Source: Desulfarculus sp.
GTDB taxonomy: Bacteria > Desulfobacterota > Desulfarculia > Desulfarculales > Desulfarculaceae
Direction: 5' to 3'
DNA length: 10,000 bases
Assembly (NCBI GenBank): GCA_020216805.1
Contig: JAIWNN010000111.1
Location: 1-10,000, forward strand
Shown here: in pieces, positions 2,784 to 7,383 of the stretch
Position numbering within the stretch: the stretch's first letter is position 1
How the letters are laid out: every line of letters begins with the position of its first letter
Made by a program: the position numbers and the translations under genes
The notes under the pieces: model-generated
Seen by the model: only the letters and a program-made list of their open reading frames with translations
Told to the model about the DNA's origin: nothing
Databases searched by the model: none

Positions 2784-2926
2784 GTACCTTTTGTGAGGCG
2801 GTCATTGGGCCCCACCCCAGGCAGAACCGGTCTGGCCGCTCCCAGGCTCCGGCTCCCGGCCGATCCGGAGGGAAAGACCTTGGCGGCCTCGCCGATTGGC
2901 CCTAATCCAGACTAGCCCGGCAAGAT

Positions 2927-2962
2927 TAACGCCCCCGGCCGGCGCGCGGCGCGGAAGCGTTA
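2927..2962 (-). terminator. Possible terminator or hairpin after the soluble chemoreceptor gene
   Basis: TAACGC (2962-2957) and GCGTTA (2932-2927) form a 6-bp stem around a GC-rich interior that can fold on itself. It starts 20 bases after the stop codon at 2983. Only ATCTTG follows, so the U-tail is poor and termination here is a guess. Confidence 0.3.
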
Positions 2963-2982
2963 GAGGGGTTAACCGTGATTGG

Positions 2983-4254
2983 TCAGATCTGGAGCAGGTT
3001 GTCGAAGGAGACGTCGGCCCCCAGCACCCCGGCGATGCGGCCGTCGGGCCCCCGCAGGGGGGTGGAGATGGTGAAGCAGAAGCTGTCGCTGGCCACCGAG
3101 CGGTAGATCTCGGAGATGTAGGTGGCCTGGCCTTCCACGGCCCCCCGGAACCAAGGCCGGGCGGACCAGTCCTGACCAAAGCCGCTCTGGCCGTAGGCGG
3201 CCCTGAACCCCCGGCGGGCGATGTTGTCGGTGATCTGCCGTCCCTGGGCGTCGGTGACGTAGAGCAGCTCCAGGAAGGGATGGCGCTCCGCCACCTGGCG
3301 CAGGAGGGTCTCCATCCGCTCCCGGCGCAGGCTGGTCAGCTCGGCACTGGCGGCGGCCGCCTCCACCACCTGGCGGGCCTTGGCGTGGGCCGGCAGGCGG
3401 AAGGCCCCCAGCCCGGTCAGGAGGCGCTCGCACTGCGCGCGCACCAGCTGGCCCAGCTTGGCCAGATCCTCGGCCCCGGCCCGGTGTTCGCGGGCGGTCT
3501 CGGCCACCGAGTCGATATCCTGGGCCACCAGGGTCACCCGCTCCTGCTGGTCCCGGCCGGCCTCGGCGATGCGCGCGATCAGAGCGTGGAGATTGCGGGC
3601 GCCCTCCTGGCCGGCGCGATCTCCGCCCTCGCCGCCCACCGCCGCGACCAGATCCCCCACCTGGGACTGGATGGCCGAAAGGATGTCCTCCACCCGTTGG
3701 GCGGCGGCCATGGTCTGGTCGGCCAGGGTCTGCACCTCGCTGGCCACCACCGCGAAACCCAGGCCGTGCTGGCCGGCCCGGGCGGCCTCCACCGCCGCGT
3801 TGAGCGACAGCAGCTTGGTCTGGTTGGCCACCCGGCGGATGATGCCCATGATCTCGCCGATGTCCTGGGAGCGTTGATGCAGGCTCCGGGTGGTCTGGGC
3901 CACCTGGGCCGAGAAGGCCGCCGCGGCCTGGGTGCTCTCGGCGATGGCGGCCACGCTGCGCTCCAGGGCGCGGCCGGCCTTGGCGATCTCCTGGGCGCGC
4001 TGGGCCTGGTCGCGGGCCCCGCGCTCCAGGGCCTGGGCCAGGCTGCTCAGCTCCGGGGCAACCCGCCCCAGCTCCACCACCGAGCCGGCGATCTTCATGA
4101 CCACCGCCTGGAGCTTGGCGAACAACTGATTGAGCACGCCCACCAGGCGGCGCAGGCGGCCGAAGCGGGGGGCGGGGAGATTGGTGGTCAGGTCCCAATT
4201 GCCGTGGGCCATCTCCCGCAGGGGGGCGGTCACGGAAGCGGAAAAGTCGAACAT
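2983..4254 (-). CDS. Soluble methyl-accepting chemotaxis protein with C-terminal Cache-type sensor
   Basis: The start is the ATG at 4254 (protein begins MFDFSASV), with GGAG 8 bases upstream. A longer frame to 4368 is rejected because it passes through the sigma-54 promoter and encodes unlikely sequence. The 423-residue protein has no signal peptide or membrane segment. Residues 11-50 look like a HAMP-type segment (GNWDLTTNLP, then LNQLFAKLQ). Residues about 60-280 are the coiled-coil signalling domain with the conserved tip at 138-175 ([27 protein letters not shown]), which contacts CheA and CheW. Residues about 315-423 carry Cache hallmarks: YVTDAQGR at 332-339, R366-P-W368-F, then FTISTPLRGPDGRIAGVLGADVS at 394-416, given here only as a pattern. 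Cache domains are normally extracytoplasmic and N-terminal, so here a cytoplasmic ligand is likely sensed. A consensus sigma-54 promoter precedes the gene. Confidence 0.9.
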   Translation of the reverse strand: MFDFSASVTAPLREMAHGNWDLTTNLPAPRFGRLRRLVGVLNQLFAKLQAVVMKIAGSVVELGRVAPELSSLAQALERGARDQAQRAQEIAKAGRALERSVAAIAESTQAAAAFSAQVAQTTRSLHQRSQDIGEIMGIIRRVANQTKLLSLNAAVEAARAGQHGLGFAVVASEVQTLADQTMAAAQRVEDILSAIQSQVGDLVAAVGGEGGDRAGQEGARNLHALIARIAEAGRDQQERVTLVAQDIDSVAETAREHRAGAEDLAKLGQLVRAQCERLLTGLGAFRLPAHAKARQVVEAAAASAELTSLRRERMETLLRQVAERHPFLELLYVTDAQGRQITDNIARRGFRAAYGQSGFGQDWSARPWFRGAVEGQATYISEIYRSVASDSFCFTISTPLRGPDGRIAGVLGADVSFDNLLQI

Positions 4255-4310
4255 GGGCAGGTCTCCATCGGCGTTGCGGGGAACGTCCGGGCGGACTTTC
4301 CTTTTTGTAG

Positions 4311-4327
4311 AGCAAGGGTGGTGCCAA
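4311..4327 (-). promoter_or_regulatory. Sigma-54 (-24/-12) promoter of the soluble chemoreceptor gene
   Basis: On the minus strand, TTGGCAC (4327-4321), then ACCC after the shared C, then TTGCT (4315-4311) give TGGCAC-N5-TTGC with exact spacing. The predicted transcript start is near 4300, leaving a leader of about 45 bases to the ATG at 4254. The position independently rules out translation from the upstream ATG at 4368. The core shares TGGCACC and TTGCTCT with the promoter at 1134-1150. Confidence 0.85.
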
Positions 4328-4432
4328 GGGATGGCCGGCGCATGAAGCCTATTTATCGCGTGAATCAAAGGAGATGTTCTGCGAGGTCTTTTATGGTGCT
4401 ACCAAACGGTGGCTTCGTAACGCTTGCGCCTT

Positions 4433-4471: not shown

Positions 4472-5323
4472 TCAGGCCCCGCGGCCGCGTCCCCGGACCC
4501 AGGCCAGACCGGCCACCAAGAGATAGGACGCCCCCGCCAGGACGATGATCACCGCGCCGGTGGGCAGGTCCGGGCCATAGGAAATGGCCAGGCCGGCGGT
4601 GGTGAACAAGGCGCTGAGCCCCACCGCCGCGGCCATGATCTGCCACAGGCGGAAGCAGAAATGCCCGGCCACGGCGGCCGGCAGGGTCAACAGGGCGATG
4701 ACCATGATCAGGCCCACCACGGTGGACAGCAGGACCACGGTCAGGGCGGTCAGCCCCAGCAGCAGCAGGTAGTAGCCCTCCACCGCCAGGCCGCGCAGGC
4801 GGGCGAACTCGGCGTCGAAGCAGACCGCCAGCAACTGGCGGTAGCACCCCAGGCCCGCCAGGGTCACCAGCGCGCCCAGGCCGCCCAGCAGCCAGAGGTC
4901 GGTGGGGGAGACCATCAGGATGTTGCCGAACAGGTAGCCCATCAGGTCCACGCCGTAGCCCGGGGTGGCGGCCATGAACAGGATGCCCAGGGCCATGCCC
5001 AGGGCCCAGATGGCCCCGATGATGGTGTCCTCGCGCTGGCGGGCGCGCAGGTTGACCAGGCCGATCAAGGCGGCGGCGATGAGCGCGGCGGCCACCGCGC
5101 CGTAGAGGGGGTGCAGCCAGTCCCACCCGCGGGTGGCCTGGAGGTAGCGGGCCGCGCCCAGCCCGGCCAGCACGCTGTGGGCGATGGCCCCGGCCAGGTA
5201 GGAGATGCGCCGGCTGACCACGTAGGCCCCCACCACCCCGCAGGACAGGCTGGAAAGAAGGCCGGCCCAGAGGGCGTATTGCAGAAAGCCGAAGCGGGGC
5301 AGGGCCTCCAGGAACTCAATCAT
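4472..5323 (-). CDS. Metal ABC transporter permease, ZnuB-like
   Basis: The 283-residue protein is almost entirely hydrophobic and belongs to the ABC-3 (ZnuB/MntB) permease family. Likely membrane spans fall near 13-33, 45-62, 73-92, 103-120, 143-160, 186-218 (one long or two short), 228-247 and 255-275. Family hallmarks include the SYLAGAIAHSVLAGLG stretch (41-56), the ARQREDTIIGAIWALG loop and span (94-109), which is the region that couples to the ATPase, and LLTLPAAVAG (211-220). Basic residues at the C-terminus (RGRGRG) suit a cytoplasmic end. It forms the inner-membrane channel that takes metal from the binding protein. The ATG at 5323 overlaps the ATPase stop by 8 bases, indicating translational coupling. 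Zinc is inferred from the binding protein; manganese importers share this fold. Confidence 0.9.
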   Translation of the reverse strand: MIEFLEALPRFGFLQYALWAGLLSSLSCGVVGAYVVSRRISYLAGAIAHSVLAGLGAARYLQATRGWDWLHPLYGAVAAALIAAALIGLVNLRARQREDTIIGAIWALGMALGILFMAATPGYGVDLMGYLFGNILMVSPTDLWLLGGLGALVTLAGLGCYRQLLAVCFDAEFARLRGLAVEGYYLLLLGLTALTVVLLSTVVGLIMVIALLTLPAAVAGHFCFRLWQIMAAAVGLSALFTTAGLAISYGPDLPTGAVIIVLAGASYLLVAGLAWVRGRGRGA

Positions 5324-6062
5324 GGCGGCACCCCAGGTGGTGGTCGTGGCGGACCATCAGCACCTCGCGGCCGTAGATCTCGGCGATGACCTCGCCGGTG
5401 ATGTCGCAGGTGGGGTGGCTGACCACCCGGCGGTTGACGCAGATCACCTGGCCCACGTAGGGGCTGACGAAGCCGATGTCGTGGGAGACCACGATCACGG
5501 TGGCCTCCCGGTTCAGTTCCTTGAGCAGCTCGAAGACCTCGCGCTCGGCGGCGGCGTCCACGTTGGCGGTGGGCTCGTCCATCAACAACAGCCGGGGACG
5601 GTCGACCAGGGCCCGGGCGATGAGCACCCGTTGGCGCTGGCCGCCGGAGAGATCGTGGAAGGGCCGCGCCGCCAGACCGGTCAGGCCCACCCGCTCCAGG
5701 GCCGCGTCAGCCTCCCGGCGCGCGGCGCGGCCGGCCCAGGGCCAACGTCCGCCCGCTCCCAAACGGCCCATCAGCACCACGTCCTGCACCGCCACCGGGA
5801 AGGCTGGGTCCACCTGGCTGTGCTGGGGCATGTAGCCCACCCGACCGCGCACCTCTTGCGGCGGGCCTCCCAGCACCGCCAGCCGCCCCCGCTGGGGGGT
5901 CAACAGGCCCAACATCAGCTTGAGCAGGGTGGTCTTGCCCCCGCCGTTGGGCCCCACCACCGCGGCGAAGGCCAGCTCCGGCACGGTTAGGTCCACACCC
6001 TCCAGCACCGGCTGTCCGTTGTAGGCGAAGCTGAGCCCGCTGATCTCCACCGCGTTGACCAA
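5316..6062 (-). CDS. Metal ABC transporter ATP-binding protein, ZnuC-like
   Basis: The start is a TTG at 6062 with GGAGG 8 bases upstream, one base after the binding-protein stop codon. The 248-residue ATPase has Walker A GPNGGGKT (37-44), Q-loop Gln80, signature LSGGQ (138-142), Walker B LLLMDE (158-163) and switch His194 (VSHD). YMPQHSQVDPAFP (78-90) is typical of the zinc/manganese import subfamily. Two copies should power the ZnuB-like permease at the cytoplasmic face. The C-terminus ends HDHHLGCRHD (239-248), a cluster of His, Cys and Asp that could bind metal. His-rich tails also occur in other ZnuC proteins, where they may add feedback by metal, but that role is inferred here. Confidence 0.92.
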   Translation of the reverse strand: MVNAVEISGLSFAYNGQPVLEGVDLTVPELAFAAVVGPNGGGKTTLLKLMLGLLTPQRGRLAVLGGPPQEVRGRVGYMPQHSQVDPAFPVAVQDVVLMGRLGAGGRWPWAGRAARREADAALERVGLTGLAARPFHDLSGGQRQRVLIARALVDRPRLLLMDEPTANVDAAAEREVFELLKELNREATVIVVSHDIGFVSPYVGQVICVNRRVVSHPTCDITGEVIAEIYGREVLMVRHDHHLGCRHD

Positions 6063-6063
6063 A

Positions 6064-7008
6064 TCAATTGCCTCCGGCCAGGCCCCGGGCCAGGGACTCG
6101 GCCATCCGTCGCCAGTTTTGGGGCGGGTCGGGGGAGAGATCGTCCAGGGGCTCCACCACTCCGCCGATCTCCCGCGCCACCTGCTGGGCGCTCTTTTGGG
6201 GGAACTGGGGTTGCACGAAGATCACCTTCACCCCGCGCGCGCGGGCCTGGCCGATCAGCCGGGCCAGATTGCGGGGGCCGGGCTCCTTGCCGCCGGTCTC
6301 CACCGCCACCTGCCTCAGCCCGTAATCGCGGGCGAAATAGCCGAAGGCCGGATGGTACACCATGAACTCACGGCCGGCGAAGGGGGCCAGGCGGGCCACG
6401 AGCTCCTGGTCGATGTCCCGGAGCTCGGCCAAGAGGGCCGCCAGGTTGGCCTGGATGGCGACGGCCTTCTCCGGCCAGAGGGCGCTCAGCTCCCGGGCCA
6501 TGGTCCGGGCCAGATCCTGGCAGAGCCGGGGGCTCATCCAGACGTGGGGGTCCAGCTCGCCTTCCCCGTGGCCGTGATCATGTCCGTGCCCGTGGCCGGC
6601 CTTGGCCGGGCCGGGCGGCGGCGCGACCTTGCCGTGGCCGTGGGCGGGCTTATCGCCCGCGGGCTGTTGCCCCTCTCCGGGCAGCAGATCCAGGCCGTCG
6701 GCCAGGTCCACCACCTTCAGACCGGGGTTGGCGGCCGCGATCTTGGGCAGCAGTTTCTGCTCGAAGGGCAGGTCGAGGCTGAAGTAGACCTTGGCCGTCG
6801 CCACCTGGGCGGCCTGCTTGGGGCTGGGCTCGAAGGTGTGGGGGTCCTGGCCGGGGCCGGAAAGTGAGGGAACCGCCTGGCCCGCCACCCGCCCGGCCAG
6901 CCAGGCCACCGGCGGCACCCCGGCGGCCAGGCCCGGCTCCGAAGCGACGGCCAGGGTGGGGGCGGCCAGGCCCAACCAACACAGGACGGCCACGAACCAA
7001 GAACGCAT
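6064..7008 (-). CDS. Periplasmic zinc-binding protein of ABC importer, ZnuA-like
   Basis: The 314-residue protein starts at an ATG with GGAGGT six bases upstream. Residues 1-23 are a signal peptide (hydrophobic core 5-20, cut near AVASE). It is a cluster 9 (A-I) solute-binding protein. Predicted metal ligands are His57 (DPHTFEP), His155 (DPHVWMSP), His219 (VYHPAFGY) and an acidic residue near Asp289-Asp290. Between the first two lies a His-rich flexible loop, residues about 119-148 (DKPAHGHG, then HGHGHDHGHG). Such loops are characteristic of zinc carriers in this cluster and argue for zinc over manganese. VETGGKEPGPRNLARLI (236-252) is the family's conserved second-lobe motif. The gene sits between the RHH regulator (37-base gap) and the ATPase (1-base gap). 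Confidence 0.93.
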   Translation of the reverse strand: MRSWFVAVLCWLGLAAPTLAVASEPGLAAGVPPVAWLAGRVAGQAVPSLSGPGQDPHTFEPSPKQAAQVATAKVYFSLDLPFEQKLLPKIAAANPGLKVVDLADGLDLLPGEGQQPAGDKPAHGHGKVAPPPGPAKAGHGHGHDHGHGEGELDPHVWMSPRLCQDLARTMARELSALWPEKAVAIQANLAALLAELRDIDQELVARLAPFAGREFMVYHPAFGYFARDYGLRQVAVETGGKEPGPRNLARLIGQARARGVKVIFVQPQFPQKSAQQVAREIGGVVEPLDDLSPDPPQNWRRMAESLARGLAGGN

Positions 7009-7045: not shown

Positions 7046-7327
7046 CTAATCGTGCTGATGCGTCGCCGCGCCGCCGTGGTCGCAGACCAGGTGCAGGGCC
7101 TGGCACTGACCGCAGCGCTGCAACTGGTGATGGCGGCTGAAGCGGCTCCAGTGGTCCTTTTGCTCCGGAGTCAGGCTGCCGGTGCCCTGGCACAGGGGGC
7201 AGACCCCGTCCAACGCCGCCAGAATGGCGTTGCGGATGAATTCACTGCGGTTGGGGATGTGCTCCATGGCCCGCATCAACGAGGGTTCGGCCTTGAAGCT
7301 GATGACCTCGGCCTTGAGCTTGTTCAT
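7046..7327 (-). CDS. Ribbon-helix-helix regulator with C-terminal cysteine ribbon, probable zinc-responsive repressor
   Basis: The start is the ATG at 7327 with GGGAGA just upstream; the frame runs further up to 7513 but that part lies upstream of the promoter. The 93-residue protein opens with a CopG/NikR-type ribbon-helix-helix: a beta strand (KAEVISFKA, 5-13), helix one, the PNRSEFIRNAI turn and second helix (25-35). Residues 43-82 hold C43-P-L-C46 and C72-G-Q-C75, followed by H79 and C82, with a His-rich middle (H59, H66, H67). This looks like a small zinc ribbon. The tail THQHD adds two His. As first gene of the operon, under a promoter containing a palindrome, it probably represses zinc uptake when metal is plentiful. 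It is unlike Zur (Fur family), the usual zinc repressor. DNA binding is well supported; zinc as effector is inferred. Confidence 0.85.
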   Translation of the reverse strand: MNKLKAEVISFKAEPSLMRAMEHIPNRSEFIRNAILAALDGVCPLCQGTGSLTPEQKDHWSRFSRHHQLQRCGQCQALHLVCDHGGAATHQHD

Positions 7328-7355
7328 GCTTGTCTCCCATTCGACGCCACTCTCA

Positions 7356-7372
7356 GTATTACGCCGTAATAC
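7356..7372. promoter_or_regulatory. Palindromic operator GTATTAC-GCC-GTAATAC
   Basis: Two perfect 7-base half-sites in opposite orientation flank three bases. The site fills the right part of the promoter spacer and covers the whole -10 box, so a bound protein would block RNA polymerase. Half-sites of this kind suit dimeric ribbon-helix-helix proteins, and the first gene downstream encodes one. I found only this copy in the window. Confidence 0.75.
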
Positions 7373-7383
7373 GAGTCCGTCAA
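7356..7383 (-). promoter_or_regulatory. Sigma-70-type promoter of the regulator-zinc importer operon
   Basis: On the minus strand, TTGACG (7383-7378) and TAATAC (7361-7356) are separated by 16 bases. Each differs little from consensus. The expected start is near 7349, giving a leader of about 22 bases to the ATG at 7327. No other promoter fits in the short gaps further on, so this probably drives all four genes. Confidence 0.65.

Follow-up and report, generated by a model that had tools for sequence, protein, structure and literature searches.

Introduction

NikR is named as the sole metal-regulated ribbon-helix-helix (RHH) protein in a passage of a 2019 review (PMC7055735). For zinc, the part of another review that lists the regulators raising zinc import gives Zur and AdcR, the latter a member of the MarR family (PMC6103462). 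Our literature search found no description of a regulator family joining an RHH domain to a Cys/His domain. We describe such a protein at the head of a znu-type operon in a window of 10,000 nucleotides of Desulfarculus sp. DNA.

RHH proteins such as MetJ, Arc and CopG bind short palindromic boxes as dimers, often with two dimers adjacent to one another. From gene linkage, invariant residues and the position of a two-box site in the promoter, we propose that the protein is a zinc-sensing repressor of zinc uptake, whose metal-bound form would occlude the promoter as two dimers on one operator. We put the probability of this reading at roughly three in four.

Results and discussion

The regulator gene (7046..7327, minus strand) encodes 93 amino acids and is the first of four genes on one strand, separated by no more than 37 nt. 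It is followed by znuA (6064..7008), encoding a zinc-type substrate-binding protein with a long His-rich loop (Pfam ZnuA, 207 bits), by znuC (5316..6062), encoding an ATPase (ABC_tran, 110 bits), and by znuB (4472..5323), encoding a permease (ABC-3, 215 bits), all on the minus strand. The original prediction had described a 93-residue protein carrying C43/C46 and C72/C75 and leading a znu-type operon; the reading frame has all four cysteines in place and the downstream genes are supported by Pfam. The best NCBIfam scores of the transporter proteins are to the zinc proteins AztC (ZnuA), AztA (ZnuC) and AztB (ZnuB); no NCBIfam model reaches its cut-off among the matches listed (25 of 195 for znuC). 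Elsewhere in the window, positions 2983-4368 (minus strand) encode a chemotaxis-type protein whose MCP signalling domain precedes a partial dCache domain. This domain order is unusual, the end is possibly frameshifted, and another reading frame overlaps at 2802-3179.

Of the 217 relatives returned by a protein database search, 120 were listed, and 66 of these together with the window protein form alignment A1 (67 rows). Scanning genome contigs with A1 yielded at least 189 relatives, of which the best 80 were kept as loci, so that the related loci lean towards close relatives. By record title the 80 loci span about a dozen phyla, the phylum grouping being ours: Desulfobacterota, Planctomycetota, Spirochaetota, Zixibacteria (including GN15), Hydrogenedentes and Bacillota, and further Acidobacteriota, Glassbacteria, Omnitrophota, TA06, Lentisphaerae and Acidimicrobiia. 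Single taxon labels may be wrong because nearly all records are MAGs or uncultured.

The RHH_1 profile is matched by 34 of the 67 A1 members at E ≤ 0.01, and the window protein itself gives E 0.011 and 16.1 bits, below the Pfam cut-off of 20.5. By these profile matches the family is assigned to the RHH (CopG/Arc/MetJ) superfamily. Together with the AF2 model, they place the predicted DNA-binding domain at residues 1-41 (7205..7327, minus strand). The AF2 monomer (mean pLDDT 82.6, pTM 0.49) has RHH helices at residues 15-21 and 27-40, and its Cys/His domain is modelled as a helix and two strands; compared with solved structures it gave no clear match to any RHH or zinc domain. At E ≤ 1, the listed Pfam and NCBIfam matches of the window protein contain no NikR model, and its five PDB sequence matches contain no NikR chain. 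The FUR domain (PF01475) does not match the window protein at E ≤ 1 and matches one of the 67 A1 members (E 0.0099). The claim that the regulator is distinct from the Fur-family Zur stands for its fold and not beyond it; the genome of origin also has three Fur-family genes. Such genes are not fewer in genomes that carry the regulator, so that a replacement of Zur does not follow.

The sequence GTATTAC-GCC-GTAATAC occurs exactly at 7356-7372. We take it as the predicted operator, made up of two GTAWTAC boxes (7356-7362 and 7366-7372) at a 10-bp pitch. It overlaps the sole sigma70-like promoter match between 4300 and 7600 (shuffles average 0.1), which lies on the minus strand with TTGACG at 7383-7378, a 17-nt spacer and AATACT ending at 7355. 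An alternative −10 element, TAATAC with a 16-nt spacer, is equally possible, and the −10 region (7355..7361, minus strand) overlaps the box at 7356-7362. The −35 hexamer (7378..7383, minus strand) starts 11 nt before the operator, which is the commonest register among the homologues: a TTGACA-like −35 (at least 5/6) stands at offset −11 in 18 of 69 loci and at −9 in 9, with two or fewer at the other offsets listed.

Upstream regions of the RHH gene were usable in 79 loci, L066 being left out since its gene is cut at the contig start. A two-box site matching at least 12 of 14 positions is present in 69 of the 79, compared with 14 of 3,950 mononucleotide and 4 of 3,950 dinucleotide shuffles. Fifteen other pitches (7 to 22 bp) each gave between 0 and 10 loci, the 10-bp pitch alone giving 69. 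With no motif assumed, the commonest 7-mer is GTAATAC, in 61 of the 79 regions. The central bases of the two boxes are AA in 22, TA in 18, AT in 16, TT in 12 and GA in one of the 69 sites. As read from these sites, the conserved unit is a pair of self-complementary GTAWTAC boxes one helical turn apart, the central A/T of each box being independent of the other. It follows that the perfect palindrome of the window is one of four common forms. The 7-3-7 palindrome first noticed over the −10 box and spacer of the only promoter is thus exact and overlaps the promoter as described; what appears to be conserved is the two boxes and their 10-bp pitch. Boxes in tandem or palindromic arrangement on one face of the DNA, as predicted in these 69 loci, are a layout of RHH type. 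We note that 54 of the 69 sites are looser ones (12-13 of 14 positions), which counts against the zinc-repressor reading.

Gene context was surveyed in the 80 loci by searching up to 4 kb from the RHH gene for matches to the window ZnuA, ZnuB and ZnuC. At least one of the three is found in 71 loci (ZnuA in 65, ZnuC in 69, ZnuB in 62) and all three in 57; L014 has ZnuC only. Homologues had been expected beside metal genes, and znuA or znuB is indeed within reach in 70 of the 80. A His-rich stretch, defined as at least five His in 25 residues (an arbitrary threshold, applied without a control), occurs in 39 of the 65 neighbouring ZnuA proteins and is absent from 26.

Nine loci have no znu gene within 4 kb, two of which (L030, L042) end near a contig edge. 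In L022 and L076 the operator is present and is followed by the RHH gene and then by an unnamed membrane-type protein (L022:10305-10958 and L076:10510-11472, on planctomycete contigs; the L076 copy has a His-rich N-terminus), with no Pfam match above cut-off and no NCBIfam match at E ≤ 0.01. It is possible that this protein is an alternative zinc transporter or chaperone. The remaining five are orphans with neither znu genes nor a site nearby: L065 and, titled as spirochaetes, L023, L039, L061 and L072. The genome of L023 has a strict site, that is, an exact GTAWTAC-N3-GTAWTAC, before a separate znuA-C-B set (L128). In the genomes of L039 and L065 the strict sites fall within metK and beside an hsp20 gene, and those of L061 and L072 have no strict site. 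The orphans L061, L065 and L072 count against the zinc-repressor reading.

The ten loci that lack a site before the RHH gene include four in which the site stands before znuA: in L020 and L080 the RHH gene follows znuB, and in L037 and L041 it lies tail to tail with znu genes on the opposite strand. The other six are L023, L033, L039, L061, L065 and L072. L078 carries one site before the RHH gene and another before a distant znuA. The expectation that the site precedes RHH or zinc-uptake genes across phyla is thus borne out, by the 69 RHH upstream regions and by znuA in these four others. The original prediction of a self-contained, autoregulated switch fares less evenly: the site does stand before the regulator's own gene in 69 of 79 loci, and in some loci it leads znuA or an outer-membrane gene.

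These additional targets were counted by hand from 22 strict sites lying away from the RHH promoter in regulator genomes. Thirteen of them precede znuA or the gene of an LbtU porin, of a porin-like protein or of a small His-rich protein accompanied by a TonB receptor; the other nine stand before non-metal genes, within genes or with no clear target, and count against the reading. Six precede znuA (G066, G074, G085, G088, G109, G199) and two precede LbtU porins (G000, G046). Three precede a His-rich protein of about 130-145 residues followed by a TonB receptor (G043, G049, G050); the small proteins are mutually similar and the receptors were confirmed. Two precede a porin-like protein (G377, G455). 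In G455 the porin-like gene is followed by RHH-znuACB, and a member of the same family is divergent from znuA in G199.

The small His-rich proteins (L138:3063-3500, L141:3494-3874, L142:2391-2780) are of membrane type and share, by eye, a CALCAFL-like motif. They have no Pfam or NCBIfam match, and a protein search with the L142 copy gave seven matches, one nearly identical. The porin-like proteins (L218:4043-5833, L219:1510-3288, L220:2956-4698) are probable outer-membrane proteins of about 580-627 residues with an adjoining box pair and 51-54% mutual identity, again with no Pfam or NCBIfam match; we regard them as candidate zinc porins.

The draft genome of origin (1.83 Mb, 55% complete) holds two strict sites, where about 0.0006 would be expected from the base composition of the window. 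The second ends 232 nt before the gene of a 399-residue LbtU-family porin (NF033652, 240 bits against a cut-off of 90), and a TTGACA starts 12 nt before it, compared with 11 nt for the −35 hexamer of the window. This porin gene is downstream of feoB (Pfam; L137:1-1914), and its contig also carries a Fur-family gene; the locus may thus serve iron, with zinc control added to it. This location and the annotation of LbtU porins as siderophore porins count against a zinc reading.

ZnuABC-type transporters can also take manganese or iron as cargo. It could be, then, that the operator control is as proposed and that manganese or iron is sensed, the transporter being of a broad Zn/Mn/Fe type. The LbtU site after feoB fits this picture, as do the frequent iron linkage of LbtU and TonB targets, the absence of any NCBIfam model at cut-off among the matches listed for the window transporter, and the 26 ZnuA neighbours without a His-rich stretch. 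We nevertheless consider it unlikely. Zinc is preferred over other metals because of the transporter type, whose best NCBIfam scores are to the zinc proteins, because of the long His-rich loop of the window ZnuA, and because of the ligand set of the regulator: five Cys and two His are typical of zinc sites, unlike those of Mn(II) or Fe(II) sensors.

These residues lie in the putative metal-binding domain, residues 43-82 (7082..7201, minus strand). C43, C46, H59, H67, C72, C75 and C82 are identical in all 200 aligned relatives (all 80 loci and all 120 listed proteins, with 194 distinct cores among them), and H79 is kept in 70 of the 80 loci and 99 of the 120 listed proteins. Homologues were expected to keep the four cysteines first recognised, and all 200 do; H59, H67 and C82, which had gone unremarked, are likewise invariant. 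The number of invariant Cys/His residues, seven, suggests that metal is bound at more than one site. The domain probably has one structural and one sensing site, and we infer that the four cysteines C43, C46, C72 and C75 would form the structural site, with H59, H67 and C82 contributing to the sensing one.

The C-P-x-C-x-G-x-G pattern of the domain resembles the zinc folds of DnaJ and anti-TRAP, in which zinc is structural; the DnaJ_CXXCXGXG profile is matched by 26 of the 67 A1 members at E ≤ 0.01, and anti-TRAP matches have E 0.002 and 0.019. Accordingly, the whole domain might be a zinc fold of purely structural role. The protein would then act as an autorepressor, metal-independent or redox-tuned, that does no more than fix the basal level of znu expression. 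The chance of this appears slim, since H59, H67 and C82 are invariant beyond the four-cysteine site and since the linkage to zinc uptake in most loci would go unexplained.

Sites and regulator also occur together across genomes. In the class, strict sites are found in 8 of 15 genomes with the regulator and in 2 of 48 without (Fisher p 6e-5). In the phylum, 38 of 394 sampled genomes match the regulator, one of them (G178) weakly, over 31 residues; with this genome counted as without the regulator, strict sites occur in 19 of 37 regulator genomes and 8 of 357 others (Fisher p about 2.5e-16). Part of this association comes from the RHH promoter itself, and related genomes are not independent. The reversed pattern, as a control, occurs in 13 of the 394 phylum genomes and in none of the 37. 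Among the 50 genomes holding related loci, 17 have a strict site and three the reversed pattern. Strict sites are absent from 18 of the 37 regulator-bearing phylum genomes and from 33 of these 50, which counts against the proposed reading.

The eight phylum genomes with a strict site and no detected regulator include G057, where the site precedes znuA, and G408 and G362, where it precedes RHH antitoxin-toxin pairs. G057 (L143:1493-2500) is a 97% complete genome of the same genus in which the regulator was not found. The strict box pairs at the antitoxins lie just before RHH genes accompanied by a ParE-like or PIN toxin (L221:3465-3711, L227:1601-1839), in genomes without a detected copy of the zinc RHH protein. 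RHH antitoxins and the zinc regulator may share a DNA code, and the box pair before the antitoxins hints at the origin of the DNA-binding part of the regulator. The eight exceptions, G057 included, might suggest that the operator serves another factor and that the RHH gene only travels along in the znu operon. This is very improbable given the strong co-occurrence (19 of 37 against 8 of 357), the arrangement of two neighbouring palindromic boxes on the same face of the DNA, which is usual for RHH operators, and the RHH antitoxin genes behind two of the eight.

Returning to the zinc-sensing repressor, we envisage that its N-terminal RHH part dimerises and that one dimer would bind each GTAWTAC box. 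Two dimers would then lie next to each other across the −35/−10 spacer and the −10 element, separated by one helical turn. The genes under control encode importers, and so it should be the metal-bound form that represses. With sufficient zinc, metal in the C-terminal Cys/His domain would lock the DNA-binding form, which would keep RNA polymerase from the RHH-znuACB promoter and from those of genes for metal uptake across the outer membrane. Under zinc scarcity the protein would lose its metal, repression would cease, and regulator and transporter would be produced together.

Conclusions

We rate as the novel element the pairing of an RHH domain, a Cys/His metal domain and this operator in a metal-responsive repressor. 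On balance we lean towards the view that the family represents a third architecture of zinc-uptake repressor, neither Fur- nor MarR-type, spread over about a dozen phyla, with a possibly antitoxin-like RHH domain and a two-site Cys/His domain, and controlling both inner- and outer-membrane uptake, including LbtU and porin-like proteins. The possible antitoxin-like origin is suggested because RHH antitoxins use the same box.

If this is correct, a zinc switch distinct from both Zur and AdcR is widespread, operating in many bacterial phyla, and zinc-uptake control would be explained in poorly studied ones (Desulfobacterota, Planctomycetota, Zixibacteria, Hydrogenedentes, Spirochaetota). RHH regulators would gain a second metal and a second type of metal domain beyond NikR. 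The box offers a handle for finding zinc-uptake genes, including those of outer-membrane proteins annotated as siderophore porins or unannotated.

Of the known systems, NikR is similar in having an RHH domain followed by a C-terminal metal-binding domain and in repressing a metal ABC importer. It differs in that an unrelated, tetrameric C-terminal domain binds nickel and in that its operator is a widely spaced dyad; in the present family the Cys/His domain spans about 40 residues and the two operator boxes have a pitch of 10 bp. MetJ, Arc, CopG and RHH antitoxins share the placing of adjacent RHH dimers on adjacent short palindromic boxes, and MetJ, Arc and CopG are not known to have such a Cys/His domain. 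The antitoxins of L221 and L227 have the same strict box pair before antitoxin-toxin genes; they are proteins of 73-74 residues without the Cys/His domain and are paired with toxin genes. Zur, of the Fur family, is similar in expected function, namely zinc co-repression of znuABC and of outer-membrane zinc uptake, but has another fold, operator and metal sites, and Fur-family genes coexist with the regulator in its genomes. AdcR, as the review section presents it, is likewise a non-Zur regulator of zinc uptake and belongs to the MarR family, whereas the regulator described here would do so with an RHH domain.
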